Source of the DNA: Tribonema minus
Taxonomy: Eukaryota; Sar; Xanthophyceae; Tribonematales; Tribonemataceae
DNA: 64,000 bases
Direction of reading: 5' to 3'
Assembly: GCA_017506865.1 (NCBI GenBank)
Contig: JAFCMP010000553.1
Location: forward strand, 186,001-250,000
Of the stretch, positions 8,401 to 62,712 are shown in pieces (position 1 is the first letter of the stretch; every line of letters starts with the position of its first letter). The translations under genes and the position numbers were made by a program. Under the pieces are notes generated by a model. The model was not told where the DNA came from. It searched no databases and saw nothing but the letters and a program-made list of their open reading frames with translations.

Positions 8401-11266
8401 AGCACCAATTGCCACAAAAACTATGAGATTCATGTGCCCAGAAATGAAGTGAGTGGATCCATACCTTGCAGGTGGCCTTACTGACCAGTGATGGTTCACT
8501 GGCGATCATGTTCCAGGCAGTGGCAATCAGTGGCTAGCAGGTCAGAGAGACTGCTGCAGTAGGTGATGCATCCAGTCTGAGCCGTTAAACAATTGCTGAT
8601 GGCAAACAGAACCAGATGTGCGCATTTCCAAGCGCACTAGCTACGCCCAGAAAATGTGAAGCTGACGAAACACAGAACCAAAACGTAGGACAGCGCCAGC
8701 TTGAATTTTACTGTACTACCTCGACAAGCACGCTACCGCATTACCGTAGGTCCTCGATATGCACATTTTGAACTTCAGAATCTGCAGGCTGCTTTGCAGT
8801 CGTGCGCCAGTCATTCTGCAAATGTGGTAAAGAAGGCAACTCTGCGCTGCGCATGCTGTCAACACACATTGCACGCCTGAGACAGGGCAAAGGCTTATGG
8901 AACTTGCCGAATCAGTCCACAGAACGAAACCCAAGCGTGTCAAAGATCGTCTGATGCCCTTCCGTGCTTTCACTAGCAGCCCTCTTGTTGATCGCACTAT
9001 AATCAAACCTCATTGCTAGCAAGAAGCCTCCCAGCATACGGCACGAATTGCCAACAGTGTGCGCTCCATGGCGGTTGGTGTTGCCGCTGCGCACGCAGTT
9101 CCTCAACCAGAGATTCGACAGCAACATATGGTGCCAGTGCCATCCCCACCAAGCCTCACCAGCTCAGTGCCCGCAGCATCGACGAATGTGATGACGCGCT
9201 GAGCCGTGACATTGCTGCCCGAGGGCGCGCGCGCCGGCGCCTGCGGCACCGGGAAAATGATGAGAACCACCTCCGAGTCCTGGTGCTCCCACCACGTGGT
9301 CTTGCTCAATGGGCACGCATCGATCATGTAACCGCCCTGGGAGAGGGAGCACAGCATGGTGCGGACGGCGCCCGCGCGGTTCAGCCCTGCCAGCCGCTGC
9401 TGCCGGAGGTGCTGCACCGCAGCCTCCCTGAAGTCGCCAACTGTCTGAGTGCTGTAGCCGTAGAACCGATGGTCACCGTCATCTGCGCAGTACAGCAAGG
9501 ATTCCTGGGATTTATGATGATGGCGTATTGGTCGTCAGCAGCTGCTGCAGCTTCACAGCACATGGAGTGAGTAACTTGACAGTGAAGGCAGGTGGGCAGA
9601 AAGAAAGGCAGTAGAAGTAGCAGTAGAAGTAGCAGTAGAAGCAGACCCCCTAGGTGCGCTCTGGCTCATTTATTCGGCAATCGGAATGCCACTGATTGAA
9701 GACAACGCGCATGCAGGACTGGCCTATGAGAAAAAACCTGCACTATGGAACATCTGAGCAAGCACGCCCCGCATGACAGGTATGTGGTGTCAGTGATACA
9801 GCGGTGGCATTGTACCTGCTGCACAGCATAGTAAAGTGTACACATGAAGCATACTCTACTTGCAAAGCAGTCGGTTCGCATTATACACAAGCACGCTCTG
9901 CAAAGACAAAAGACTGCTCCGTGACAAGGACGGGCCACAGCCACGTAGGGCCCTTTGGCACCTTACAGCGCATGGTAATGCAGGAAGACAACAACACACA
10001 GCCATACCGTAGATCACGGAGTATAAAAAACCCCTTTTACATAAGACCCCCCCATCGTATAATGTAGTATAAGGCCTTCCGTTTCCCTAGGGAGGCGTGT
10101 GCGCGCAAGACCGGGGGTACGCTGTATAAGACCGGGGTAAGCACGTGTTGTATAGGACCGGGTTGTAAGTAGACAAAGGAACATGGCAGTTACGCAAACT
10201 TCAAGTCGTTTCGGCATAGTTCAGCGCGAGGGACAAGTTGTGATGCAGCGTCAAAGCAGGTGGTGTGAGCTGCATTGCTGCGCAATGCCTCTGCAGACGT
10301 GAGTTTGTAGTGCTAAGGGCGTGTCTGAACGAGGCGTGCTAGATTAGGAGCTGCAGAACGTTCGTTGTGGCCTGCTGCTTGCACAGCTGTGTGCTGCAGT
10401 ATAGCCTGCTGCTTGCACAGCTGTGTGCTGCAATATATATCATGCGATAGCATGCTACCGCAGCCACACACGCGCGTGCAAGACGGGGGGTACATTGTAT
10501 AAGACTCCCCCCCCGTATAAGACCCCCCGTCTTCCGAACACGGGCCTCGCAGCATGCTAAAACGGGGGGGGGGGTATACTCCGTGATCCACGGTAAGCAT
10601 GCTCTGGAATGTCGACCGGTGACAGTCGTGTAAGGCCCACTGGGACCTTAGAGCCCATGGTGCCGCAGAAAGACACTGTCAGCAACAGCTAACCGCACAC
10701 GCCAAGCATCTGAGCACCCGCTTACCTGGACCATACTCTGCAAGGCCTGTTGGCGGGTCCTCACCCAGGTAGAAGTCCACAGCGTCCTCTCCTGGCCAAA
10801 ATGTGCGCACCATGACATACTTCACTGCGCCAGCCTCGCCACCCCAGATGCTGGAGGGAGGTGCATCTCCGCCGAAAGTTGCCAAGTAGAGGTTGAGGGT
10901 GTGCGCCAAGCGCCGCTCGTAGTCTGGCTGCTCGCTCAGCATGGGATTGTGGTGGATGCGCCCACCACCAGGGAGCAGCACCTGCTGAAACGCCTCATAG
11001 CTGCGGGTGTCAAGCACATGAGCGTGCCAGACTTCGTCAATCTGCGGAGAGGGCGCCAAGCCCACCCCAGGCTCTAGAAGTCCGTGCTCTACCTTCAGCT
11101 GCATAAACTTCAGGTATTCTTGGGTAAGCTCATTGGATTTAGCTGGTGTCTTGTGCAGGACCTCTCTGCAGAGCTTGTCAACCCTCTCCCTAACTCGTTG
11201 CAGGGTCCCAGCAGTGGCTGCCTGTGCCACGCCCAGCAGGTCTCCCGCGCGACGCCTGGTGCCCAT
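5465..11266 (-). CDS. DUF1399 (GRDP-like) protein fused to ubiquitin-like domains
   Basis: Six exons join in frame: 11266-10726, 9482-9160, 8389-8171, 7649-7456, 6460-6278 and 5633-5465, giving about 542 residues. I chose the ATG at 11264-11266 (context aagATGG). Residues about 45-120 match the glycine-rich-domain-containing-protein-like family (DUF1399): YLKFMQLKV, then IDEVWHAHVLDTRSYEAF and GGRIHHNPML. The middle exons look like diverged ubiquitin-like folds (TQTVGDFREAAVQHL; WDLLFEGRNLTTQAALSSTL). The last 77 residues form a clear ubiquitin-like domain (RRIAVKTLNGKRTEF, then RQQHLIFAGMRLGDGRTL) ending LMLRLSAC. The terminal Gly-Gly used for conjugation is absent, so this is more likely a ubiquitin-fold scaffold than a modifier precursor. 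Introns carry a TIR element (10005-10594) and a decayed copy of an exon end (about 5940-6037). The biochemical role is unknown. The domain calls are confident at both ends of the protein and weaker in the middle. Confidence 0.8.
5940..6037 (-). repeat. Decayed duplicate of the upstream exon 3' end (pseudo-exon)
   Basis: Inside the last intron of the DUF1399/ubiquitin-like gene, the minus strand reads ANVLLLYVGQLHGNG followed by ICFQLKVNESPF and an in-frame TAA. This lines up with the end of the preceding exon (CTLVVVRAASG... AVKTLNGKRTEF). The two neighbouring exons splice perfectly without it, so I read it as a non-functional tandem copy. Confidence 0.4.
9611..9645. repeat. Short tandem repeat, unit AGTAGAAGTAGC
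   Basis: About three near-perfect 12-bp units in the first intron of the DUF1399/ubiquitin-like gene. Confidence 0.8.
10005..10594. mobile_element. MITE-like TIR element in the first intron of the DUF1399/ubiquitin-like gene
   Basis: The left end TACCGTAGATCACGGAGTAT at 10005 and the right end at 10571-10594 are inverted copies with one mismatch over about 20 bp. Both are bounded by TA, consistent with a TA target duplication. The inside has no convincing ORF. It holds several GTATAAGACC-type words followed by C-runs (10121-10165, 10495-10530) and a 31-bp direct repeat near 10370-10435 (cctgctgcttgcacagctgt, twice). It is non-autonomous by content. A superfamily cannot be assigned by eye. 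Confidence 0.6.
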
Positions 11267-25529: not shown

Positions 25530-26495
25530 GCGTTGAGCAGAGGAAGGTGCGTCGAAACTTTCGAAGCTTAGTTCGACTCTAGTGAGTCCTAGTCAGCGTT
25601 GATTTGCTTTCTTGCTTGCTCTGGTTTCGCATCAAGGTGTGCCTCAAGCTGTGTCCATCAGAGAGCCTATGGCGTATTCGCTCGTGTAAGATGCTGGCTT
25701 TGCCCAAATGCAGCCGCTGCAGCAAATGTCCCTGCACATTGGCAAGCCAAAAGCGGTGCTTTGCTTGCGAGTGCCTGCATCCAGTGTCGTCGAAAACTTG
25801 CAGAATTCCTCGTTGAACAGCTACTTCGCAAAAGCAGAAGTCATTTCACGAAGGCGGGTGTCAGGCTGCATCACTCCAAATACACCAGCTCTTACTGTCG
25901 GCCGGCATGCTGCGTGATTGTGTCGTCTTATCATGCAAGATTTGACATGCTTTGCTCCGAACTTTGTGCGGACGTTACAACTGTCCATTGCAGCCTGCAT
26001 GCATCACTGCAACAACCTCGTTGGATGTGGTCATGGGTGCATTGCGCCACTGAGCCTTGGCACAGCGTGGCCAAGACTTGAATCCCATCAAAATATGTGT
26101 CCGCGCAGGCCCCACCTCTGCGCGCGGCTCAGAGCGGCGATGCGCAGCAACACCTGAGCGGTGCCACACGCTGCTGAGCACTGCGTCACCAACGGCATCG
26201 ACCTCAGCACTGCATGACGCAGCGTGACTGTCTCTCTCACACAAAATGCGCACACTGGCGCGCTACCGCTGCACGCTGCCCGTGCGCTGCAGGATCTCTC
26301 TGTGCTCCTGAACGGAGGCGCTTTATTGCTGGCCGCCGCGCTGCGCTGAGCACTGCGAATTCAAGGAGGGAGGGGGCTAGCAAAAGACTCGGCAGGGCGG
26401 CATACTGTCATCAAGAGGGCGCTAAATCAAAGCAGCAGATCTGAGCGCTGTGATTGAAGGACAGGGGAGGGCTGTGCTGTGCTGAGCACTGGGGT
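25530..26495. other. No gene recognised upstream of SNF8
   Basis: Short open frames only, none with family resemblance. The interval grades into the GCTGAGCACTG-rich tandem repeat that precedes SNF8. Confidence 0.35.
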
Positions 26496-26790
26496 GTGAG
26501 AGCTAGCGCTGAGCGACGTGGCAGTGCTGAGCACTGTCGTTGCTGCATTAGCGTCGAGCGACGCCACAGGGCTGAACGCTGTGGCAGAACGATACTGCGC
26601 GGCGGAACAGCGCTGAGAACTGGCGTTTGAGGGCTAGCGCGGAGCGACGTGTGGCAGTGCTGAGCACTGTCGTTGTCGCATTAGCGCTGAGCGACAAAGC
26701 ACTGCTAATTACTGTGGCAGAACGGTACTGCTCTGCGGAACAGCGCTGAGAACTGACGTTCGAGGGTGAACGCGGCGCCACGCAGCAGCG
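26496..26790. repeat. 133-bp tandem repeat upstream of the SNF8 start codon
   Basis: Two clear units with a partial third. The phrase gcagtgctgagcactgtcgt starts at 26521 and again at 26654, giving a 133-bp period. Each unit contains agctagcgc(t/g)gagcgacgt and gcggaacagcgctgagaact. It ends about 45 bp before the SNF8 ATG, so it occupies the position of the 5' UTR or core promoter. Confidence 0.75.
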
Positions 26791-26832
26791 CAGCAGCGCG
26801 GAGCACTGTTGTTTGAAGGAGGACGCTGAGCG

Positions 26833-29800
26833 ATGCGGCGGCGCGGCGTGGGCGTCGCGGCGGTGAAGCACAGGGCGCGCGAGAAGGACGCCTTTGAGGT
26901 GGTGGGCCAGGCGGCTGCGGCGGAGAACATGGCACATGTGCAGGTACGCCGTGTTACGTGCCTCAACCATGTCTTACGTTTTTCAACTTAAAGTGCACAT
27001 TCTACTGCGGACAACATGGCGCACGTGCAGGTACTCCGTGTTACGTGCCTCAACCATCTCTTGGCTTCTCACTTCATGTGCGAGCCTGCGTGGCTTGCTA
27101 GAAGGACGTCTCTGAAGTGGTGGGCCAGGCGGCAGCGGCGGAGAACATGACATAGTTGCATGCCATGTCGCAGACATGTCCCAATGGGTCCTTGTTTTAG
27201 CTCTAGATTGGTTGTGTATGCAAGTTGTCGGTGGCGCTGCAGCGGAGAACATGGCGCTCGTGCACGTACGTTGTGTTGCATACCCAAGCCATGTCTTGCA
27301 AGCAAGCCATATTTCATGGCTTGCGCGCCATTTTTCATAACACAACATAGTGCACACAGTGTTTGTGGAAAGCTATGGCTCACGGCTCCATACTTTCCCA
27401 GATCACTGATCATCAACATTGTGTGACAGCAGAGGGGTGCTGCATATAAGCGCTGCTGCATTTCAAGCTGAAGGCTGCTGCCTGCTGAGTGCTGCTTCAG
27501 TTTGTGCGATGACCTGCTGCATTTCAAGCGCTGCTGCATTTAAAGCCGAGCGTCGCTTATTTTCCAATGCTGCTGTTCAAGCTGAGCGTTGCTGCTTTTT
27601 GAGCACTGCTGCACTGTGAACCTTGTCACTACATTGTCAACGCTCAACGTGTGGCATTCTGAACTGCGCGTTGCTGCATCCTAAGCGCTGCCACATTTGA
27701 GCGCTGCTGCAGGCCACGCTGGAGACGTTCAAGGGGCACTTGGAGGATTTTGCGCGCAAGTACAAGAAGTCCATCAACCAGGACCCAGCCTTCCGTCAGC
27801 AGTTCCAGACCATGTGTGCGAGCATTGGGTGAGTGCGCTGCACCCTGATTGCAGGAAACAGGGCCACTACAAGCTCACAAAGCTCAAGCCGCTCTGCATG
27901 AGCATCGGCAACGCTTATTGATGAATCGTAAGTAAAGTATTAACTCTTATGTGTCAATGCTGCGGGTGTGCTGAAAGCGCTAAGCGGTGTCAATTCTGGT
28001 TGCTTCGCTTGGTTGGGGTGAGGCCAGGGGGATGGGCAAAGGCCGGCACGGTGCTCTGCGCGAGCAGTGCAGACCACATAATTGTGCTTCACATCGTGCA
28101 AGTGCAATGCCTCTTGAGGTAGTTGCCGTCTGTGCTTCCGCCATTACTCCTGAAAAATCTGCTGTAAGTGCTCTGTGAGCCAAGTGTGCGCTGGCTTCTA
28201 ATTAGGGCTGCAGGGCGAGAAAAAGGCTTCGTCACATTTGAAGAGTTGCTCAAAACGCAGCGTTACTGCATGTTTGCGCATCTATGCAGAGACAGACAGC
28301 TGGCAGCTGACAAGGGCTTTTTCGGCAAATGTATTGCTTTTCACTGCATCAACAGCTGCTCACTGCCACTGGACATTGCTTATGCTATGCTCAAGCTGTG
28401 TCTGAATGTATGCGCGTCTGCGCAGAGTGGACCCGCTGGCGTCTAATAAGGGCTTCTGAGCGGAAGTCCTGCTTTTCACTGCATAACAGCTACTCAAAGC
28501 CACTGGACATTGCTTGGACTATTATAACATTGTGACTGTGTGTATGCGCACCTGCGCAGAGTGGACCCGCTGGCATCCAACAAGGGCTTCTGGGCGGAAG
28601 TCCTGGGGGTGGGCGACTTCTACTACGAGCTCGCGGTGCAGATCACGGAGGTGTGCATTGCGACGCGCGAGACCAACGGCGGCCTTATGGCGCTGCAGGA
28701 GCTGCTGCAGCGCCTGCGCGCGCGCCGCAGCAAGAAGAGCCCCGCCATTTCCCTGGACGACATCAAGCGCGCGATAGGTGGGTAAAAGCAAGTGCTTCAA
28801 ATTACACCAACCCTGACTGTAAACTAGCTCTCGTTCTGGCCCCAGATCCAACTTCAAGGAGCCTGCGCGCGCGCCGCAACAAGAAGAGCCCCGCCATTTC
28901 CCTGGAGGACATCAAGCGCGCGATAGGTGGGTCAAAGCAAATGCTGCAAATACACCTACTCTAATTGCAGCCCTGAACCTGGTCTTAGCCGTGACCTTCA
29001 GCAGCGCCTGTGCGCGCTGCGCAGCGAGAAGGGCCTCGCCATTTCTTTGGACGACATCAAGCGCGCGATAGGTGGGCGTATGCACAAAATGTCCTTCATG
29101 TTGCACTTACTTGGCCCCGAGCTCAAGTCCTAGTCTTAGTCGTGACCCTAAGCAGCGCCTGCGCGCGCGGCGCAGTAGGAAGAGCACGCGATCTCTCTGG
29201 ACGACATCAAGCGCGCGATAGGTGGGCGAAAGCAAATGCTTCAAATCACACCTTACATTGAAGTCTCCTGCGTTTTTTGCCTGCACATCAGAGGTTGCTA
29301 ATTTTACCGCGCCATTGTGTTGCAGCTGCTGCCTCGCACCAACTGCGCAGCCCCAGATTCGAACGGGCCTCACTGTTTGCATGCACTACTTGGACTACAC
29401 TTTTTCTTTTTTTGCAGGAATGGGTGCTGCGGGCGCTTCTGCATGAATTTCACAGCATATGCCACTGCGTACATGTTCGCTGTCAAAGCATGCAAGCTCA
29501 ATGCGCACCGTATGCTTTTGCGTTCGGCTACTTCAGTCAGCAATGGTCACCTTCACCACCAAACTGCAGTACCTGGAAATTGGTGGTCTGCCTACATGCA
29601 TCAAATATCTACTTCACAGCCCAGCTGCGGTATCTGAACATTGCTGCTCTGCCTCCCTGCAAACTGTCTGCCCCTGCAGCCAAGCTCAAAGTGCTGGGCA
29701 GAGGGTTTGCGCTAGTAGAGGTGGGCAAGACGCAGATGGTGCTCAGCGTGCCAAGGGAGCTGAGCAATGATGCGTCTGCGGTCTTACAGGTGGGGCATGC

Positions 29801-30923
29801 ATATTCACCCCTATGTCCGAGGGAAGTGTGATGTTGAAGTAATCTGAATCTACCACAGCCTACAGTAGTTGATGGACGCACTTCTTCTGTGATGGGCGGA
29901 GGATGGCACTTATACTTCGCAGGCTTACAGTACTTGATTGACGCATTACTCTGCTTATAGTGCCAGCGTATGGGACACACACATGCGGTATGTGCAATGA
30001 TGCTTCAATTTCACCTGGTACATGAGGTCGAGTGAGCTACTAGGATGTTCATTTTGCTGCAGCGATTGATTGATGCTCTGTGACCAAATGATAATCGGCT
30101 AATCAGGCAAGCATCTGAAGGTATGCACAGTCGCCTGTACTCCATGACAGTGCTTCAGAGCTTATGTCAGCGCCAACATCCCGCACTAGGACTGTACAAA
30201 TCAAGAAGGCATTAAGTGTACAAGCATCCATGTGTCAGCGCAGGCATGTGCCAGGGACAGTCACCCATGGCATTGACGCATTTGGGCCCTTCATTTCACA
30301 TACTTCATGTGCGCTCCTTGGGGGGCACACCGCTGAGTGCTGCACTGCCCCCTCATGCGGGCCCAAAAGCATTTTGTGATAAGCATCGGTGGAACGGATG
30401 CAGCAACGCTCATCACGTGAGTCGGTCCAACAAATCTGGCCGTTGGCCACTTTGTCAACTGCTTCTAATGTGCGCTGCGCAACAGTCAGAGGCGTGCCCT
30501 GCAACCATTTCGTCCACCTCAATGGAGATGCCTGCAGCACAGCTGCAGAGCGCAGCAGATGCGCCAACATGCTGGTCAGGGCTGTGTTACACGAGGCAAC
30601 CCTAACCCTAACCCTAACCCTAACCTGCTGATCTGTGCTCTGCGCCGTTAACGCCCCTCATCCAAATTCTTTGAGTGCCCTTCTGTTTCGTGTTTGAGCG
30701 AGAGCAGGCCGCAGAAGGCTCCGGGCACGCTAGCGTACGCGCACTCTGCGTTGGCCTCAGTTGGACGCAGGACCGCGCTCGCCGCGCCCTCACGGCACTC
30801 GCGCAAGACGGCATGGCCTGGGTTGACGAGCAGGCTCCGGGGGGCGAGCCCCTCTTCTTCTTCCCCTCGCTCTGGAAGGGGGAGCACTTGCTGGGGGGAG
30901 GGGCTGAGGGGGGGGAGCAGTAG
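26833..30923 (+). CDS. SNF8: ESCRT-II subunit SNF8/VPS22
   Basis: Five exons join in frame: 26833-26943, 27713-27828, 28560-28777, 29680-29789 and 30708-30923, giving 256 residues; animal SNF8 is about 258. The protein starts [15 protein letters not shown] (family MHRRGVGAGAI) and continues [18 protein letters not shown], then [84 protein letters not shown] and [11 protein letters not shown]. These are the two winged-helix domains of the EAP30 family. SNF8 forms ESCRT-II with VPS25 and VPS36 on endosomes and works in sorting ubiquitinated membrane proteins into multivesicular bodies. All four introns use GT/AG. Introns 1 to 3 are crowded with decayed copies of the adjoining exon borders, and intron 4 holds a telomere-type tract 82 bp before exon 5. 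The C-terminus is Gly-rich and may vary. Confidence 0.93.
27002..27270 (+). repeat. Three decayed copies of the SNF8 exon 1 3' end
   Basis: The end of exon 1 (gcggagaacatggcacatgt, then gcag|gtacgcc) recurs at about 27008-27040 (acaacatggcgcacgtgcag, then gtactccgtgttacgtgcc), at 27101-27156 (gaaggacgtctctgaagtgg, then ggagaacatgaca, donor lost) and at 27229-27275 (gcagcggagaacatggcgct, then cgtgcacgtacg). They lie downstream of the true exon, within intron 1. Confidence 0.8.
27440..27712 (+). repeat. Degenerate array of acceptor-like AGCGCTGCTGCA units before SNF8 exon 2
   Basis: The sequence immediately before exon 2 (gagcgctgctgcag) is preceded by many variants of the same word (aagcgctgctgcatttcaag, gagcgttgctgctttttgag, gcgttgctgcatcctaagcg) at roughly 30-bp intervals. 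It reads as repeated duplication of the 3' splice-site region. Confidence 0.6.
28175..28480 (+). repeat. Decayed copies of the SNF8 exon 3 5' start
   Basis: The true acceptor and exon start (gcgcag|agtggacccgctgg) is preceded by a near-identical copy at 28425-28478 (tgcgcagagtggacccgctg, then gcgtctaataagggcttctg), with an in-frame TGA where the exon has TGG. A more diverged copy lies at about 28262-28330, and possibly another at about 28178-28215. The period is roughly 130-150 bp. Confidence 0.8.
28840..29225 (+). repeat. Three tandem copies of the SNF8 exon 3 3' end with donor
   Basis: The last 70-80 bp of exon 3 (encoding [20 protein letters not shown], then I and donor gtgggt) recur ending at 28927, 29072 and 29222. 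Copies 2 and 3 keep the reading frame ([34 protein letters not shown]). Copy 4 has lost one base and is frameshifted. Each copy is followed by a GTGGG-type donor. Units are about 145-150 bp. Confidence 0.85.
29555..29680 (+). repeat. Duplicated segment before SNF8 exon 4
   Basis: The stretch at about 29560-29605 (ccaaactgcagtacctggaa, ttggtggtctgcctacatgc) recurs diverged at about 29618-29665 (cccagctgcggtatctgaac, ttgctgctctgcctccctgc) just upstream of the true acceptor at 29678-29679. Confidence 0.55.
30598..30625. repeat. Interstitial telomere tract (CCCTAA)4
   Basis: A perfect 28-bp run of CCCTAA units in SNF8 intron 4, 82 bp before exon 5. On the opposite strand this is TTAGGG, the canonical telomere unit of many eukaryotes. 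Confidence 0.9.
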
Positions 30924-32043
30924 CCCCGGTTTGCCCCCTTGTCCTCCCTTATTTGGGCAAAAACGGTCGTGAGAGGCATTTGCAGCAAGGTCCCTGTTGG
31001 CCCCAGGCGACTGTGCTTGCTTGCAATGAGGGAGCCTCTGACGGCCTTGTCCCTCAAGGGGAGTGGCTGGGGGAGATGTGGGAAGGGGGGGGGGAGGGGG
31101 GGACGAGAGATTGCCCTCAGCTGTCACGTGCCGACGTGTGCTCACCAGGGCCTGAAGGATGCTTTCAATGGAGTGGCACAGCTTTTTCGTTGCGGTCAAT
31201 GAAGCAGGGGAGGCACGCTCTCCCTCCCCGGATGAGATGGGATCCATCTTCAAGACTGACGCGTGCGTAATCATCCCTCGGGTTTGCGGCAAGCTAAACT
31301 TGCAGTCGCTGCTTAGCGACACCACGCAGCGGCAAAGCCCCCTCCCCTTCGCGCTCGCAGCACCTTGCTAAGGAACGTTGGAGCACCATCAATAGCAGCA
31401 CGAGGGCTGGAAGCAGGACCTGTCTCCTCACCCCCCCTCCTTATACATTAACAAAGGAATCTACATGCTGGAAAGGGACCTTGTGGTCTCATGGCAAGCT
31501 GCCAGTGTACAGAGCTCGATGCGCACAGCTAAAATGTACAAATGGCATCCCCTGTGCCAGGGATGTTGGATGTTTGTCAATTGCGGTCCCAGTTTGTGCC
31601 ATGCCCAATGCTGTTGCGCATGCAGTGCCATTTGCGTCTGAGACTCCCAAGTGTTTCTGTTATTCAATGATACTTCAAGTACATTGAAATAATAAAAAGC
31701 ACATGAGTTTGTATGTACAACAGCGTCCCAAGCTCCTCAACGCCGAAAGGCGTGGCAGCGAATGCGGCTGGTTTGGTGAGTGAGCTGGGCTGCAGGGCTT
31801 GCAGGAGCTAGCACCAGCGGCCCTCAGGTGATGCCAGCGTGCGTAGCCCCTTCGAGAGAACTTCAAACGTGTGGTGGTGTCTCGGAAGCCCTAACTGGCG
31901 TGCGGAGGAGGGACAGGCAGCGGCTTGGCGTGCTTGGAGAGCAAGCGGAGTCGGCTGCACGCCACGGCACCAACCACAAGTTACTCTCAGCGGTAAATGG
32001 CAATATCTTGTCAGGCTTGCAGCCTGCGGTGAGCCGTGACCTC
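30924..32043. other. No gene recognised; G-rich tracts
   Basis: Downstream of SNF8. It contains long G runs (30880-30920 within and after the stop codon, and 31080-31105) able to form G-quadruplexes. Open frames here have no recognisable motif. Confidence 0.35.
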
Positions 32044-32690
32044 GCTCATCAAGGAGGCGATGCTTTACTTAGTTATGTAGCCTTTCTCTCTAGCGTCAGC
32101 GCCTGGCGCCCAGTGACTCCCTCTGCTTATCTCTATGATATCGGGGTTCACGTAGATAGCCACAATCTCCAGTTCAGGGCCCATCATGGTGACCTTGGCC
32201 TGCATGAAAACTTTGAGATGGAGTCTGCGTGGAGCTGGGTGGCCCTTAGAAGGGTCTGTCTGCGGGGGGAGAGTCTTGCAGCTTTGTTTGGTATCCCTGC
32301 TAGTGTGTGGGGGACAGTCGCTTGCGGATGCTTTGTTGGGGGTGATATGGGAGGCCCGGTGAACCACCGTCCCGCTCATCAAGGAGGCGATGCTTTGCTT
32401 AGTTATATAGCCTTTCTTTCTAGCGTCAGCGCCTGGCGCCCAGTGACTCCCTCTGCTTATCTTTATGATATCGGGGTTCACGTAGATAGCCACAATCTCC
32501 AGTTCAGGGCCCATTATGGTGACCTTGGCCTGCATGAAAACTTTGAGATGGAGTCTGCGTGGAGCTGAGTGGCCCTAAGACGGGTCTGTCTGTGGGGGGA
32601 GAGTCTTGTAGCTTTGTTTGGTATCCCTGCTAGTATGTGGGGGACAGTCGCTTGCGGGTGCTTTGTTGGGGGTGATGTGGGGGGCGGGGT
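32044..32690. repeat. 330-bp tandem duplication
   Basis: Two head-to-tail copies start at 32044 and 32374 (gctcatcaaggaggcgatgc) and are nearly identical; differences are mostly C/T or G/A changes. An open frame crosses the junction on both strands. On the minus strand it reads MGPELEIVAIYVNPDI and HWAPGADA in each copy; on the plus strand AWRPVTPSAYLYDIGVHVDS. I recognise neither, and cannot say which strand, if any, codes. Confidence 0.85.
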
Positions 32691-33055
32691 GTGGCGTGCA
32701 AGCTTTGCATGCTACATCCAAGAGTGAGAACATGGCGACACACCTACAACATGGCATTTCCACAGCCACAAGTGGAATATAATAAAAGTACAGTAGCATG
32801 TGCTGCGACGGGAAAGTTCTGGGCCTGTCGTACCATACCTAGCAGTGGTCTAGGGACAGCTGCGCATCAAAGCCCGCCTGTCACTGAGCTTCAGCGTTCG
32901 AAAATGCTTCCAAAAGGATGCTTGTCCCGACACATTGCATACATTGAAGCCCTATCACGAGGGGGTTGATCAATGATTTCGAGAACCAACCTATTTCAAA
33001 AAGCGAATGTAATCGCTTGCAAGTTGTGAGTGTTGAGCGGGATCCCGGATCGATC

Positions 33056-34303
33056 ATGGCAGCCAACCCGATCTTGAGCGTCGCCCCCGATGTCCTGGGT
33101 TTCTTGCCTCCGACCTTGATTACCAGGAGCACCTGCCACGCCTTCCACGATATCTTGGAGCACGGTCCTGCACCACGAAAGCACCAGACCGTGGCAGCGG
33201 ATGCTGTCGGCAGCACCAGCCTAATTCTGTGGGCAGTGCAGAACGGCATGGATGCCGAAATGGCGCAGAGCTCATGCATTCACAGGGGCGATATGGGAGC
33301 ATTGCTGCTGCTCCGCCGCACCCACGCGACAGAACAAACATGGCACGCGGAAATTGCTGCCGAGAGGGGACATCTGCAGCTGGTGCAGTGGCTGCGAAAG
33401 CGCTGTCCCGTTGATGATGAAGACACAGAACTGTGCAGCGCCGCTGCAAGAGGCGGTCAGCTTGAGGTGCTGCAGTGGCTGCGGCGGGAGGGCTGCGCCT
33501 GGGATGCCTGCACGTGCTCATCCGCGGCTGGCGGCGGTCACCTTGCGGTACTGCAGTGGGCGCGTGCACACGGGTGCCCCTGGGATAGAGACACGTGCAA
33601 GAACGCCGCAGCTGACGGGCACCTTGCGGTTCTCCGGTGGGCGCACGCCAACGGGTGCCCCTGGGACCAGACAACATGCTCACAGGCGGCACGCAGCGGG
33701 CACCTTGCGCTACTGCAGTGGGCGCGCGCCAACGCGTGTCCCTGGATTGCGGACACGTGCTCATCCGCGGCTGCCGGCGGGCATCTCCACGTACTGCAGT
33801 GGGCACGCGCCAGCGGGTGCCCCTGGGACGAGGAAGTATGCGACTCCGCTGCGGCGGGCGGCCACCTTGCGGTGCTGCAGTGGGCGCGCGCCAACGGGTG
33901 TCCATGGAACGAAGAGACATGCAGCTATGCAGCGGGGGGTGGACACCTAGAAGTGCTGCAATGGGCACACGAAAACGGGTGCCCCTGGGACGTGCGTACG
34001 TGCAGCTACGCTGCAAGCAGCGGGTACCTTGGGGTGCTGCAGTGGGCGCGAGCCAATGGCTGCCCTTGGGACAGCAATACATGCGACCTCGCTGCCGGAA
34101 GGGGTCACCTGGAGGTGCTGCAGTGGGTGCGCGCCAACGGGTGTCCCTGGAGTGAGCGCACTATCTTATACGCCGAGCGATTAGGCCATCAGGAGACCGC
34201 AGATTGGGCACGGGCCAATGGGTGCCCCGAGCCTGATAAATGTGGGACATCTGATGATGACTCGTATGACCCTCATGACGATACTCAGGGCTTCAGCGAC
34301 TAG
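33056..34303 (+). CDS. Ankyrin-repeat protein A (GCPWD type), intact
   Basis: A single exon of 415 codons from ATG 33056. The N-terminus (MAANPILSVAPDVLGFLPPT, then a short helix with STCHAFHDIL) resembles an F-box-like helix pair, which is inference. Eleven ankyrin repeats of 27 residues (81 bp) follow, with consensus C-AA-GGHLAVLQWARANGCPWD. The last unit is atypical (GHQETADWARANGCPEPD). A short acidic tail follows (DDDSYDPHDDTQGFSD). It is the best preserved of three paralogs in this window. Ankyrin repeats mediate protein binding; the partner is unknown. Long antisense frames across the repeats are a by-product of the 81-bp periodicity. Confidence 0.85.
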   Translation: MAANPILSVAPDVLGFLPPTLITRSTCHAFHDILEHGPAPRKHQTVAADAVGSTSLILWAVQNGMDAEMAQSSCIHRGDMGALLLLRRTHATEQTWHAEIAAERGHLQLVQWLRKRCPVDDEDTELCSAAARGGQLEVLQWLRREGCAWDACTCSSAAGGGHLAVLQWARAHGCPWDRDTCKNAAADGHLAVLRWAHANGCPWDQTTCSQAARSGHLALLQWARANACPWIADTCSSAAAGGHLHVLQWARASGCPWDEEVCDSAAAGGHLAVLQWARANGCPWNEETCSYAAGGGHLEVLQWAHENGCPWDVRTCSYAASSGYLGVLQWARANGCPWDSNTCDLAAGRGHLEVLQWVRANGCPWSERTILYAERLGHQETADWARANGCPEPDKCGTSDDDSYDPHDDTQGFSD

Positions 34304-40990: not shown

Positions 40991-41722
40991 CTTTGTAGTG
41001 CTGTGCGCTGTTCGTGCTGAGGCTCTTGCCTGAACTCTAGGCCTGGGGTGCTTGGCATCCCAGGCGGAGCAGTGAGTGTTGAAAACGTGGCAACGGCAGT
41101 GATATGTGCCCCTCTATCACTTCAAGTTCTTGTGCGCTGCGCCCTGGTAGCAATGGAGCTGTGACTGGGGCAGAACTGCAGCGGCAGCATTTTCACATCA
41201 GCTTGTTGAAATTGAGCAATTGATATGACCCATTTCTTTTTTCCCATGCAAAGGTCTGCAGCAACTCTGGGGGCGGAGTTGCGTTTTGGCAGGGGGGGGT
41301 TTTGCATTTTGGCAGGGGGGGTTGTTGCAGTTTTAAGACAATTGAGTATAATATGATGCACATTGGTGGGCAAGGGTGCATACCACCAGCAAGTTCTGTC
41401 AGTGAGCACCAGGGGGTGCTTCATGATGTGACAACATCGGGTGGTCTGGGTAGGAGCTCTTGACTGCTCAGAATTCACTTCAATTTTTTGAAAATAGATC
41501 CTGCCGCTTGAAGCAAACAATAGCATGCATATGCCCGTGGCCCCGACTGGAGCAGACAAATGGAGTGTACATGAGAATCAGATTCACTGACTGACACGGT
41601 GTGTGTGTTCGCAAAACCCGTTATTAGCTGTACTTCCAATTTGAACTTGACTCGAGAAAAAGCAGGCCATAAAAGGCAGTCCACACAGTTCTCAAGACTT
41701 CACTTTGATTGAGGTGATCACC
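40991..41722. other. Conserved upstream region of ankyrin gene B
   Basis: No gene. The stretch at 41220-41722 is duplicated upstream of ankyrin gene C (50450-51085): caaaggtctgcagcaactct, gcataccaccagcaagttct, gaagcaaacaatagcatgca and ccgttattagctgtacttcc recur in order. Ankyrin gene A lacks it. It probably contains the promoter. Confidence 0.6.
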
Positions 41723-42745
41723 ATGGCAGCCAACCCGATCCTGAGTGTCGCCTCCCATGTCCTGGGTTTCTTGCCTCCGACGCTCATGGCCAGGAGCACT
41801 TGCCGCACCTTCCACGACATATCTTGCATGGTCCACCACCACGGAAGCACCAGACCGTGGCGGCGGATGCTGTCAGCAGCACCAGCCTTGTTCTGTGGGC
41901 AGTGCAGCACGGCATGGATCCTGCCTTGGCGCAGACCTCGTGCATACGCAGGGGAGATATGGCAGCATTACTGCAGCTCCGCAGCACCCACGACAGATGT
42001 GCTGCCGCGGCACACCGAAATTGCTGCCGAAAGGGGACGTCTGCAGCTGGCGCAGTGGCTGCTAGAGCGCTGTCCTGTAAATGACGAGGACATATATCTG
42101 TGCAGAGCTGCTGCAAGAGGCGGTCAGCTCGCAGTGCTGCAGTGGCTGCGCCAGGTCGGCAGCGCTTGGGATGAGCAAATACCCAGAGCTGCAGCAGCAG
42201 GCGGGCATCTTGCGGTGCTGCAGTGGGCGCATGCCAACGGGTGTCCCTGGGACGAGTTCATATGCGCGTCTGCTGCCAGGGGAGGACACCTCGGTATTCT
42301 GCAGTGGGCCCGTGCACAGGGCTGTCCTTGGGACAGCGCCACGTGCATGTGTGCTGCGGAAGGCGGGCACCTTGCGGTGCTGCAGTGGGCACGCGCCAAC
42401 ACGTGTCCGTGGGGCGTGGAGACATGCAGCCGTGCAGCGGAGCGCGGTCATCTTGACGTCCTGGTTTGGGCGCGCGCCAACGGAGCCCCATGGGACGAGG
42501 AAACGTGCTGTGACGCTGCGCAGCACGGGCACCTGGATGTGCTGCAGTGGGCGCGTGCGAATGGCTGCCCTTGGGGCGGCTCAACATGCAACTCAGCTGG
42601 TTTTGGGGGTCGCCTGGAGGTGCTGCAATGGGCGCGCGCCAACGGGTGTCCCTGGGGTGAGTACACCATCTCATACGCCGAGCACCACGGCCATCAGGAG
42701 ATAGTGGATTGGGCACGTGCCAATGGGTGCCCAGAGCCCAACTGA
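41723..42745 (+). CDS. Ankyrin-repeat protein B (GCPWD type) with an internal frame change
   Basis: Paralog of A, 340 codons from ATG 41723, with nine 27-residue ankyrin units. The N-terminus (MAANPILSVASHVLGFLPPT) and everything from TEIAAERGRLQLAQWLLERC onward match A. Between about residues 34 and 93 the frame is shifted: the conserved APRKHQTVAADAV and STSLVLWAVQHGMDPA sequence lies in another frame, so the product reads unrelated residues there. The open frame is nevertheless uninterrupted, because a second indel restores it. Either the segment tolerates change or the gene is newly decaying. Confidence 0.7.
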   Translation: MAANPILSVASHVLGFLPPTLMARSTCRTFHDISCMVHHHGSTRPWRRMLSAAPALFCGQCSTAWILPWRRPRAYAGEIWQHYCSSAAPTTDVLPRHTEIAAERGRLQLAQWLLERCPVNDEDIYLCRAAARGGQLAVLQWLRQVGSAWDEQIPRAAAAGGHLAVLQWAHANGCPWDEFICASAARGGHLGILQWARAQGCPWDSATCMCAAEGGHLAVLQWARANTCPWGVETCSRAAERGHLDVLVWARANGAPWDEETCCDAAQHGHLDVLQWARANGCPWGGSTCNSAGFGGRLEVLQWARANGCPWGEYTISYAEHHGHQEIVDWARANGCPEPN

Positions 42746-51085: not shown

Positions 51086-52020
51086 ATGGCCGCCAATCCG
51101 ATCTTGAGCGTCGCCCCCGATGTCCTGGCTTTTTTGCCTCCGACGCTCATGGCTAGGAGCACTTGCCGCACATTTCACGATATCCTAGACAATGGTCCGG
51201 CTCCACGAAAGCACCAGACCGTGGCTGCAGATGCTGTCGGCAGCACCAGCCTTGTTCTGTGGGCGGTGCAGAACGGCACCTCGTGCATCCGCAGGGGCGA
51301 TGTGGCAGCATTATTTTTTATTATTACATTCAGCTCCGCAACACCCACACGCCACCATTGTATCCGCAACACACTGTTGTTGCTGCTGAGCGGGGACATT
51401 TGCAGCTTGTGAAGTGGCTACGAGAGCGCTGTCGTTATGGTCACCAGGGCCCAAAGTTTTGCACAGCTGCTCAAGGCGGTCAGCTCGCAGTGTTGCAGTG
51501 GCTGCGCCAGGTCGGCAGCGCCTGGGACACCGAGGTACCCAGTGCTGCCGCGGAAGGCGGGCACCTCGAGGTGCTGCAGTGGGCGCATGCCAACAGGTGT
51601 CCCTGGGATGCATGCACATGCTTATCAGCAGCGCACGGCGGGCATCTTGCGGTGCTGCAGTGGGCACGCGCCAATGGGTGCCCCTGGGACCAGGAGACGT
51701 GCACAGTTACTGCAGCGGGCGGGCACCTCGATGTCCTGCAGTGGGCACGCGCCAACGGTTGCCCATGGGATACCAATACATGCAGTTACGCTGCGTACAG
51801 CAGGCAGCTTCAGGCGCTGCAGTGGGCACGTGCCAATGGCTGCCCTTGGGATGGCGACACATGCAGCTTCGCCGCCAAGCGCGGGCACCTGGAGGTTCTG
51901 CAGTGGGCCCGTGCAAACGGGTGTCCCTGGGACAGAGGTACCATATCAAACGCCGAGCAAGCAGGCCATCAGGAGATAGCGGATTGGGCACGCGCCAATG
52001 GGTGCCCAGAGCCCATCTGA
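51086..52020 (+). pseudogene. Ankyrin-repeat gene C, frameshifted
   Basis: Paralog of A and B. The first part (51086-51320, MAANPILSVAPDVLAFLPPT ... SSTLVLWAVQNG-like) is in one frame and stops at 51410-51412. The ankyrin part (eight units, from VAAERGHLQLVKWLRERC to EPI and TGA at 52018-52020) is in another frame. The break coincides with an A/T-rich insert near 51312-51335 (attttttattattacatt) absent from A and B. Without an intron there the protein is disrupted. The ankyrin part alone could still be made from an internal start. Confidence 0.7.
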
Positions 52021-60158: not shown

Positions 60159-62712
60159 CTACACGTCATTAAACCTGCCTACACGGCAATTGGCAGAGTG
60201 GCGCCAGTCAGCAATCGCAGCGCTCCCCACTCCCCTCCTGATGACCTTGTGCGTGCAGTGCCGCCGCAGCCCAGCACCGTCCCCGTTACCTCTTGCCATA
60301 ATCCATACGTCCTCTTGCTCCACAGTGAAGAAGAAGCGTGGCAGGTGCGCCGAGTCGGGCTTGAGCTCCACTTCGGCGGCAGTCGTGGATTTGGTAACAA
60401 CTGTGGCGATAGTATCTCCACATCCGCCATTTTCGTTCGCATCCTTGTGGGCGCTGAGCTCCGCCAAACGCTGCCGATTGTAGGTCATGATCGCCATTGT
60501 CGACTCCGCTCCAGGGTGAGCCCCGCCGGCATGCAGCAGTTGCAGCACGCGGCGCTCGCACTCGTAGACCAGGGCGCTCTGCGGCATCGGCACAGCGTTG
60601 AAGTAGTTCTTATACGTCCTGTTGGTGGTGATGTGGGTGTTGAAGATGGGGTTGTCAGGGCGCTGCATGACGCTGGCAAACTCGCTGCTGTCGACCGCGA
60701 GCCCGTACAGGTCCCGCGGCACGAACACGATCTTGTCGTTCTGGCCGCCGGGGTCACTCCCCCAGGCTCTGTGGCTCTCCTCCGCCGAAAAAGAAGTGAC
60801 GTGTGCGCTCAGCGCAGCGCAGTGGCGTCCTCCACCACGGCTGAGCGATACTTGAACAGTGTCTGGTGGCCGATTGCCTCGGCAAACGCCTCCACAGCCG
60901 CACGGTCGGCGGCGCTGATGGGTTCGCTATTGTCACCGTGCGTGGGATTGATGAGCTCGCCCGTGTGCATGTCAAAGCAGAGGCGCACCCTGGCGCCTCT
61001 GCCACCTCTGCTGGCGCTGCCGCCGCCTCTGCTGCTGCCTCCGCTACGACCGCTGCCGCCACTGCTGCTGCCTGTGGGCGCCGCCAGAAGGGCACTGCGA
61101 GCAGCGCGCGCCGCAGTGGCCGCCCGTGCCATCCTCACCCAGAACACCGTGTCCACTGCGGCGACCGCCTTAGCCACCGCCTGCGCGACGCCAGGCACCT
61201 GAGAGGACTGGCGGTCACGAAGCAGCGACTGAATGCGACGCTTCTTGGTGGGGGTGCGGACGACCTGCAGCGGGAGCGGCATCAAGGGCGGATGCTGTCA
61301 ACAGGATGCCCGAATCTTTGGTCAGAAATAGTTTCCACAGAGCAAAAGCAAAAACGGAGAGGGACGACGCTCTCCTGATTTCTGCAGTTGCCAAAGATAT
61401 TCAATCTCAAGTTGGAAGTTCTGGCCAAGCCCCGAATCTTTAGTCGGAAATAGTTTGCACAGAGCAAAAGCAAAATGGGCGAGGGACGACGCTCTCCTGA
61501 TTTCTGCAATTGCCAGAAATATTCAACCTCAACTTTGAAGTTCTGGCCATCCCTGAATCTTTTGTCAGATTTACTTTTCACAGAGCAAAAGCAAAATGGG
61601 CGAGGGACGACGCTCTCCTGATTTCTGCAATTGCCAGAAATATTGAACCTCAACTTTGAAGTTCTGGACATCCCCGAATCTTTTGTCGGATTTACTTTTC
61701 ACAGAGCAAAAGCAAAATGGGCGAGGGACGACGCTCTCCTGATTTCTGCAATTGCCAGAAATATTGAACCTCAACTTTGAAGTTCTGGACATCCCCGAAT
61801 CTTTTGTCGGATTTACTCTTCACAGAGCAAAAGCAAAATGAGCGAGGGACGACGCTCTCCTGATTTCTGCAATTGCCAGAAATATTCAACCTCAACTTTG
61901 AAGTTCTGGACATCCCCGAATCTTTTGTCGGATTTACTTTTCACAGAGCAAAAGCAAAATGGGCGAGGGACGACGCTCTCCTGATTTCTGCAATTGCCAG
62001 AAATATTCAACCCCAACTTTGAAGGAGCGCAGTACCTACTTGCCTCAGGCTCGCTATCATCGTCGCCGACCTGCTCCGGCTCCGGCTCCTGCTGTGGCTC
62101 TGGCTCCGGCTCCTGCTGTGGCTCCGGCTCCTGCTGTGGCTCCGGCTCCGGCTCAGCTTCAGACCCCGCTCCTCCGTGCTGCTTGTGTTGCTGCCCCCCT
62201 GAGTGCCACCCGGCTGCTGTTGTACTCCTCGCAGTGACTGCGCCAGTTTGAGTTGCTGTACCCATTGAGGCGGTGTGATGTTGTACCGTGGCAGCGCCTG
62301 TGAGTGTATGCACATGAGGTGGCAGATGTGTCAGTGACTTCGTACGGCAGGCAGCACAATGCTGGCGCGTAGTGCTCCGGCAGAGCTGCACATGCTGCCT
62401 TGCGCGAGCTTACAACCCTGAACATGCAGCAATGTTCACCTGGATGATGGGCTTCTTGTCGCCAGTGTCAGCCAGCAGACCCAGCAGGACCTTGATGCTC
62501 TCCAGACGTTTTGGTTTGGTGGGCCAGTCCACCGTCATTGTCACACTAAAGTCCTGCGGCCTGCTGCGTTGCTTCCACGTCAACCATGAGTGAGCGTCGA
62601 TGACATCCTTGAATACCTTGGGTAGAGTCAGGTGTTGTTTAACGGACTGCTTCAGCAGTGTGGAGTAGAGTGCGTCCACTTGCTCCTGCATGCCTGCGCG
62701 TGAGTACATCAA
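60159..62712 (-). CDS. Unrecognised multi-exon protein with satellite-bearing intron
   Basis: Minus-strand blocks in order: about 62700-62440 (QVDALYSTLLKQSVKQHLTL, HSWLTWKQRSRPQDFSVTMT, ending KKPIIQ with donor cag|gtgaac); about 62391-62042 (Pro/Glu/Gln tract EPEPQQEPEPQQ, then VGDDDSEPEA with donor gtaggt); about 61285-60855 (VDTVFWVRMARAATAARAAR, a Gly/Ser tract, VRLCFDMHTGELINPTHGDN, AIGHQTLFK with donor gtatcg); and about 60766-60159 (GSDPGGQNDKIVFVPRDLYG, HITTNRTYKNYFNAVPMPQS, LPRFFFTVEQEDVWIMARGN). The last junction keeps the frame. The joins and total length are provisional. I recognise no family. The intron between blocks 2 and 3 holds six 121-bp satellite units. Confidence 0.45.
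61305..62035. repeat. 121-bp tandem satellite, six units
   Basis: The phrase cacagagcaaaagcaaaa recurs at about 61336, 61458, 61579, 61700, 61821 and 61942, giving a 121-bp period. Each unit runs from ccgaatcttt to gaagttctgg. Units 3 to 6 are nearly identical; unit 1 is the most diverged. Because 121 is not divisible by three, open frames pass through successive units in changing frame on the minus strand; these are not genes. Confidence 0.92.

Follow-up and report, generated by a model that had tools for sequence, protein, structure and literature searches.

Copies of exon edges in the introns of SNF8 and other Tribonema minus genes suggest intron lengthening by tandem duplication across splice junctions

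The introns of the SNF8 gene of Tribonema minus (Xanthophyceae) contain copies of the edges of the adjoining exons, with exon ends copied downstream and exon starts copied upstream. The gene lies in a stretch of 64,000 nucleotides (hereafter, the window; assembly GCA_017506865.1, contig JAFCMP010000553.1, positions 186,001 to 250,000 of the forward strand), which is part of contig C550 in the searched assembly of 158 Mb and 554 contigs. The same one-sided pattern recurs in other genes of this genome, and introns that carry such copies are longer than those that do not. Probably, repeated short tandem duplications across exon–intron junctions lengthen the introns of SNF8 and of many other genes, and the copies subsequently decay in an approximately neutral manner.

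Copies of exon edges in the introns of SNF8

SNF8/VPS22 occupies positions 26833–30923 of the window on the forward strand, where all features described in this section are located. The five exons (26833..26943, which has an EAP30 match, 27713..27828, 28560..28777, 29680..29789, and 30708..30923 with the stop codon) amount to 771 bp of spliced sequence with an open frame throughout, and the four introns (769, 731, 902, and 918 bp, respectively) all have GT-AG borders. Most of the protein matches the EAP30 profile (PF04157), and the match covers the whole profile (profile positions 1–219 of 219, 1.2e-53), identifying it as a member of the SNF8/VPS22 family of ESCRT-II, and matches human SNF8 in the PDB (2zme; 2.6e-70).

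Self-comparison of the gene region, which had been proposed in a preliminary description of this DNA, revealed three junction arrays, located at the exon 1 donor, the exon 3 acceptor, and the exon 3 donor. The most regular of these lies downstream of exon 3, where a unit of 145–150 bp is present four times including the exon (spacings of 149, 145, and 150 bp). In the first copy (28861..28951), 66 bp are exonic and 97% identical to the exon end; in the second (28993..29096), 79 bp at 86%; and in the third (29152..29252), 70 bp at 89%. All three keep the donor GT, and the first two are free of indels, whereas the third has a 1-bp gap, in line with the earlier claim of three copies with donors, two of them in frame. 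Upstream of exon 3, a unit of 134–136 bp is present three times (spacings of 136 and 134 bp). The closer copy of the acceptor and the first 46 bp of the exon (28398..28471, exonic part 28426–28471) is 91% identical in the exonic part and contains one stop codon, and a weaker copy of the acceptor and exon start, 270 bp upstream (28262..28319), is 72% identical over 58 bp; thus, at least two start copies, one near-identical with a stop, are present as described, and so are the ladders of about 130–150 bp on the two sides of this exon. The copies are head-to-tail, on the same strand and regularly spaced, that is, they form tandem arrays at exon 3.

The end of exon 1 is copied at offsets of +87, +218, and +322, an irregular spacing. 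The first copy (27007..27062) is 91% identical over 56 bp, of which about 24 bp are exonic, and keeps the donor; the second, of approximately the last 64 bp of the exon (27097..27160), is 86% identical over 64 bp, has lost the donor and contains two stop codons in the exon frame; the third (27236..27297) is 79% identical over 62 bp and has a donor-like GTACG. The three decayed copies, two with donor-like sequence, that had been noted from the sequence alone were thereby recovered. In larger arrays, the homology extends over the whole unit (387 bp aligned at a shift of 149), but in several others it does not (for example, 56 bp at a shift of 87).

Two claims of the preliminary description had to be narrowed. 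Repeats do exist before exon 2 (27438..27549, 77-bp shift) and exon 4 (29551..29661, 61-bp shift), but both are intronic and contain no sequence of the respective exon, and the one pair that takes in the acceptor of exon 2 (27433–27473 and 27684–27724; 41 bp at 73%) may well be due to chance. Furthermore, to say that the introns are "built from" such copies is too strong: repeat arrays cover 221 of the 769 bp of intron 1, 294 of the 731 bp of intron 2, 476 of the 902 bp of intron 3, and none of the 918 bp of intron 4. Intron 4 contains a telomere-like short repeat (AACCCT, 4.7 copies, window 30598–30625).

No repeats were found in Markov-resampled pieces of the window at the score at which the real window yields 34. 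A 701-bp query consisting of exon 3 and its end copies had two matches at the SNF8 locus and none elsewhere in the genome (very common words being skipped in this search), as opposed to what a dispersed repeat unrelated to SNF8 would give.

Recurrence of exon-edge copies in other genes

The comparison of exon borders with their flanks was extended to 70 predicted exons of 12 genes, namely, ten chaperonin genes, one tRNA-synthetase gene, and SNF8. The chaperonin family (PF00118; 56 exon matches in the genome) was chosen as conserved and multi-exon, and all ten of its genes were used without regard to repeats; gene C4 was selected partly for its overlapping profile matches. Exons were predicted with a small hidden Markov model gene finder anchored on profile matches, so that all borders except those of SNF8 are predictions from a program trained on the same data, some of them lacking AG or GT (for example, C51 1846). 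For each exon, up to 1.3 kb was searched on each side, ending at the next known exon. One exon of C511 (2117–2360), with a hand-set end and not among the predictions, was left out of the counts of border copies and codons.

In this set, 55 copies of exon ends were found downstream and 36 copies of exon starts upstream of the respective exons, together with eight mid-exon copies (four per side). No exon end was found upstream and no exon start downstream, in full agreement with the directionality noted for SNF8. Both controls, in which each exon was compared with the flanks of one exon from another gene (0 of 70) or with its own flanks reversed, gave no matches. Copies accompany 31 of the 70 exons, 18 at the start and 25 at the end, and are unevenly distributed, affecting 29 of 46 exons in eight genes and 2 of 24 in the other four, a grouping made post hoc. 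The GC content at third codon positions does not separate the two groups (0.64–0.94 in array-poor and 0.73–0.90 in array-rich genes).

Some PF00118 matches double profile positions within one gene, the extra copy either following an exon end or preceding an exon start. The tables of profile matches were read by eye for matches in a single gene that share 20 or more profile positions. Such overlaps were seen for PF00118 at C5, C51 (two), and C135, with a doubtful pair at C279; for PF00133 (28 matches) at C445, with a doubtful pair at C4; and for PF00225 (132 matches) at C246 and C511, with none among the 16 matches to PF00562. The chlorophyll-binding family PF00504 (92 exon matches in the genome) has overlaps at C79, C1, C150, C516, and C30 but was put aside because its helices resemble one another; at least at C79:1260591-1261277 and C1:1236836-1237498, the overlapping matches lie at short distance in the order opposite to the exon-border direction. 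The shortness of many copies makes profile overlap too crude a measure for a genome-wide census.

With regard to the splice sites themselves, GC donors are present in 4 of the 46 introns for which both flanks are known, and in 10 of 63 predicted exon ends when last exons are included, the gene finder having no penalty for GC. One of the 46 introns has a GG donor, which stems from the hand-set end in C511.

Intron length and a pair of Cpn60 paralogues

Among 37 introns between known exons, 18 contain junction-spanning arrays, two contain interior arrays only, and 17 contain none. The median length is 734 bp for introns with border arrays (n = 18) as against 388 bp for those without (n = 19; one-sided p = 0.0036), and the difference holds within the chaperonin genes alone (700 bp, n = 14, vs. 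388 bp, n = 17; p = 0.0073).

Two Cpn60 paralogues, on C511 (L037) and C516 (L044), share five intron positions and differ sharply in this respect. In the C516 gene, copies accompany 6 of 7 exons, 9 of 12 inner junctions carry arrays, and the mean intron length is 1124 bp, whereas in the C511 gene, with a mean intron length of 486 bp, none of the five exons tested has copies, and a single array touches a junction, by 10 bp. Copy content is thus gene-specific, one Cpn60 gene being rich in copies and its paralogue nearly free of them. At the intron 8702–9346 of L044, the C511 exon is uninterrupted, and the exon predicted for the Cpn60 gene on C544 likewise continues through the site, which favours a gain of this intron in C516, although three paralogues are insufficient to settle the matter. 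Downstream of the end of C516 exon 4 (L044 6330–7437), the copies mostly keep the protein sequence and differ at synonymous sites; the working exon encodes Cys where the paralogue and the better copies encode Arg.

Duplication across junctions and the question of exon-edge preference

These observations can be accommodated in a simple scheme. Short tandem duplications, with a unit mostly of 80–200 bp, would recur and run across an exon–intron junction. If the outermost junction stays the one that is spliced, each added unit would remain intronic; the intron would then lengthen as exon ends accumulate downstream of donors and exon starts upstream of acceptors. Duplications within exons would be purged by selection, and the copies would decay approximately neutrally, leaving decoy splice sites behind. 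We infer from the sequences that tandem duplication is the mutational step, that the copies originate mostly at the exon edge, and that the outer sites continue to be used in splicing. Consistent with such a step, the smallest shift is 80–200 bp in 31 of 34 arrays, and several arrays can be aligned across more than a single unit, as is typical of tandem duplicates. At the array edge, the exonic portion ranges from about 10 to 135 bp, which implies that there is no fixed breakpoint.

The one-sidedness by itself requires no special process because an extra junction-spanning copy that spares the protein must be intronic; it follows from splicing and selection alone. A separate question is whether duplication is targeted to exon edges, with co-transcriptional breaks, R-loops, or a step in composition as conceivable causes, rather than being random and filtered by selection only. 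Random tandem duplication outside exons would often take in a junction because the units measure about 80–200 bp and the introns a few hundred bp. Nevertheless, in the 46 known introns, 30 of 34 arrays include a junction, where the lengths of units and introns predict 16.4 (p = 7e-8), and among pairs with at least 85% identity, all 18 arrays do so, compared with 11.0 expected (p = 8e-6). The concentration of copies in eight of the 12 genes points in the same direction. However, copies matched to a constrained exon decay more slowly and stay recognizable longer, and for this reason the expected odds were raised 1.6, 2.2, and 3 times; with this detection advantage, the p values, from a binomial at the mean probability, become 0.0003, 0.005, and 0.03 for the 34 arrays and 0.002, 0.01, and 0.03 for the 18. 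Duplications away from exon edges exist as well, including a 131-bp tandem duplication directly upstream of SNF8 (window 26481–26813), and in an arbitrarily chosen 70-kb stretch of C544, 15 of 22 arrays overlap no strong predicted exon, a weak negative given that only 28 strong exons were called there. Array coverage ranges from 0 to 44% in the chaperonin regions and from 1.5 to 20% in 10-kb blocks of the C544 stretch. When exons were masked before the array search, 16 of 29 arrays began within 12 bp of a junction, with 2.1 expected, but this null is too strict for the result to be relied on. Taken together, the data do no more than suggest that exon edges are preferred over and above what geometry and detection bias would produce, and targeting, which we consider possible but somewhat doubtful, is unproven.

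The earlier proposal that introns grow outward from exon edges holds in outline and is supported as far as recurrence, longer introns, and decoy sites are concerned; the edge preference that it implies is no more than suggested, and four of the 12 genes have almost no copies.

Ageing of the copies

Most copies look neutral. Between exons and copies, we counted 264 synonymous and 269 missense codon differences along with 13 stops, yielding a missense-to-synonymous ratio of 1.02, or 1.26 when two odd arrays, C516 exon 4 and C51 1846, are dropped post hoc; codons with several changes were counted once, and the copy pairs are not independent. The computed neutral ratio is 2.3–2.9, and for a free copy compared with a constrained exon we take half of this, 1.2–1.5, as the expectation because the exon adds synonymous changes. 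In 17 of the 25 multi-copy arrays, the copy next to the exon resembles it more closely than the most distant copy does, with seven showing the opposite and one tie.

As an anomaly, exonic parts have kept their sequence better than the intron parts beside them. In junction-spanning alignments, exon–copy divergence is 0.088 substitutions per site in the exonic and 0.199 in the intronic part, a ratio of 0.44 for which about 0.63 is expected. Among copies found by their exonic part, between-copy identity is 0.84–0.85 in exonic and 0.64–0.67 in intronic sequence, compared with 0.55 for unrelated sequence, but this mode of selection favours the exonic part; for copies found by their intron part, the gap is much smaller, with means of 0.73 and 0.70 (misplaced junctions included).

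Several observations fit the scheme of tandem duplication and neutral decay less well. Between copies, there are 274 synonymous and 333 missense differences and 14 stops, and the ratio of 1.22 (1.62 without the two odd arrays) falls below the neutral 2.3–2.9, although such a deficit is expected of copies that arose from the exon at different times. When two intronic copies are compared with each other, divergence is still lower in exonic than in intronic sequence (0.138 vs. 0.210 substitutions per site), the ratio of 0.66 lying within the expected range of 0.63–1. At acceptors, ungapped identity is 0.88, 0.94, and 0.79 at positions -3, -2, and -1, drops to 0.42 at -5 and 0.39 at -6, and is 0.58 at both -7 and -8. 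A recognizable intron part is found in 38 of the 53 copies with an exonic identity of at least 0.90, compared with about 52 in simulations, which ignore regression to the mean. In some two-copy cases, the alignment does not span the full shift, as it would in a recent tandem duplicate, and the heterogeneity from gene to gene is significant (permutation p = 0.004). Conversion from the exon, weak constraint on the copied splice sites, or a faster turnover of intron sequence may also act. A more far-reaching reading would be a gene-specific mutational process that favours exon edges over other DNA, with introns growing from both flanking exons and the copies being refreshed by conversion from the working exon over only the selectively fixed part, the exon together with CAG or GT, a combination that we think rather unlikely. 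If it were true, introns would be growing by a so far undescribed route, one that would also keep supplying decoy splice sites and raw exons.

Could the copies instead be working alternative exon ends or mini-exons maintained by selection? The donor dinucleotide, GT or GC, is kept in 42 of 53 donor copies and AG in 24 of 33 acceptor copies, and the two odd arrays have an excess of synonymous differences (37 to 9 missense between exon and copies for C51 1846, 64 to 23 between copies for C516 exon 4). Against this stand the stops and the frameshift in the SNF8 copies, indels in copies, the absence, as judged by eye, of a common donor at the inner end of the start copies in five arrays, and the almost equal numbers of missense and synonymous differences over all arrays. 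Protein-level selection on all copies is rejected overall, although it may act in C516 exon 4 and C51 1846, and a working role for the copies is improbable.

Comparison with known routes of intron change

Intron length is usually attributed to transposons or small indels. Intronic minisatellites and other internal tandem repeats consist of head-to-tail units whose identity falls with age, features shared by the arrays described here; unlike minisatellites, the units in T. minus are anchored on exon edges, lie on one side only, and include coding sequence as well as splice sites.

Introns are known to be gained through tandem genomic duplication, as outlined in three reports (PMC3443670, PMC4974935, and PMC2891723). 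In the AGGT form summarized in PMC3443670, duplication of an exonic segment containing AGGT creates a new intron; as in T. minus, the duplication is short, tandem, and confined to a gene, splicing picks among the duplicated sites, and the protein is unchanged. In T. minus, however, the unit spans an existing junction and an existing intron lengthens. Gain of this kind (the Rogers model) would be a conceivable source of the ladders, given that 29 of the 46 known introns have AG|GT donors and that the C516 intron 8702–9346 has no counterpart in C511. This model expects a copy of the exon end beside the acceptor or of the exon start beside the donor, but none of 59 copies has the opposite splice site within 15 bp, and the units contain intron sequence. 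As the origin of the ladders, we reject this mechanism, which is very improbable, while it could still make some introns. In the potato RdRp gene, as outlined in PMC4974935, a single duplication of an intron–exon structure yielded a new intron and an added exonic piece; the T. minus copies similarly reproduce intron–exon structure including splice signals, but they point to serial events in several genes, with no added exon inferred. Finally, PMC2891723 outlines how novel introns arise when coding sequence that carries a proto-splice site is duplicated in tandem; intron positions change there, whereas here the positions stay, as the five common to the Cpn60 paralogues illustrate, and the length changes.

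A dispersed repeat, an introner-type or other transposable element, or an assembly error is a practically negligible alternative, and the dispersed repeat is rejected: short-range repeats are indeed common in the sampled stretches, but each array resembles its own exon, the unit was not found at unrelated loci in either the genome query with SNF8 exon 3 or the comparison with flanks of other genes, and exon–copy identities of 76 to 98% show that the copies are not simple assembly duplicates.

Among the papers listed in searches of open-licence PMC literature, no description of intron growth by duplication of exon borders was found in the titles and the beginnings of abstracts. The remark in the preliminary description that no matching process was known would thus hold for serial, one-sided growth, but not for tandem duplication as such, which is known from intron gain. 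As a mutational step, tandem duplication is familiar, but its scale, direction, and consequence here are not. If the tandem-duplication scheme set out above is correct, serial duplication of junctions would have left in this genome a directional and roughly ordered record of how its introns grew, and the contrast between the C511 and C516 genes, together with the ladders of near-perfect decoy sites, would make intron lengthening and the way in which the cell copes with it testable in one organism.

Other repeats in the window

The window contains additional repeats outside SNF8. The motif GCTGAGCACTG occurs seven times, with five of the occurrences at 26173–26669. Two tandem arrays appear young, one with a 330-bp unit present twice at 95% identity (32043–32691) and the other with a 122-bp unit present about six times at 89–95% (61306–62024). 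An 81-bp repeat, corresponding to 27 residues, is found in three long frames (32966–34303, 41705–42745, and 51163–52020), the first of which is ankyrin by Pfam; the other two are similar to the ankyrin frame by eye.

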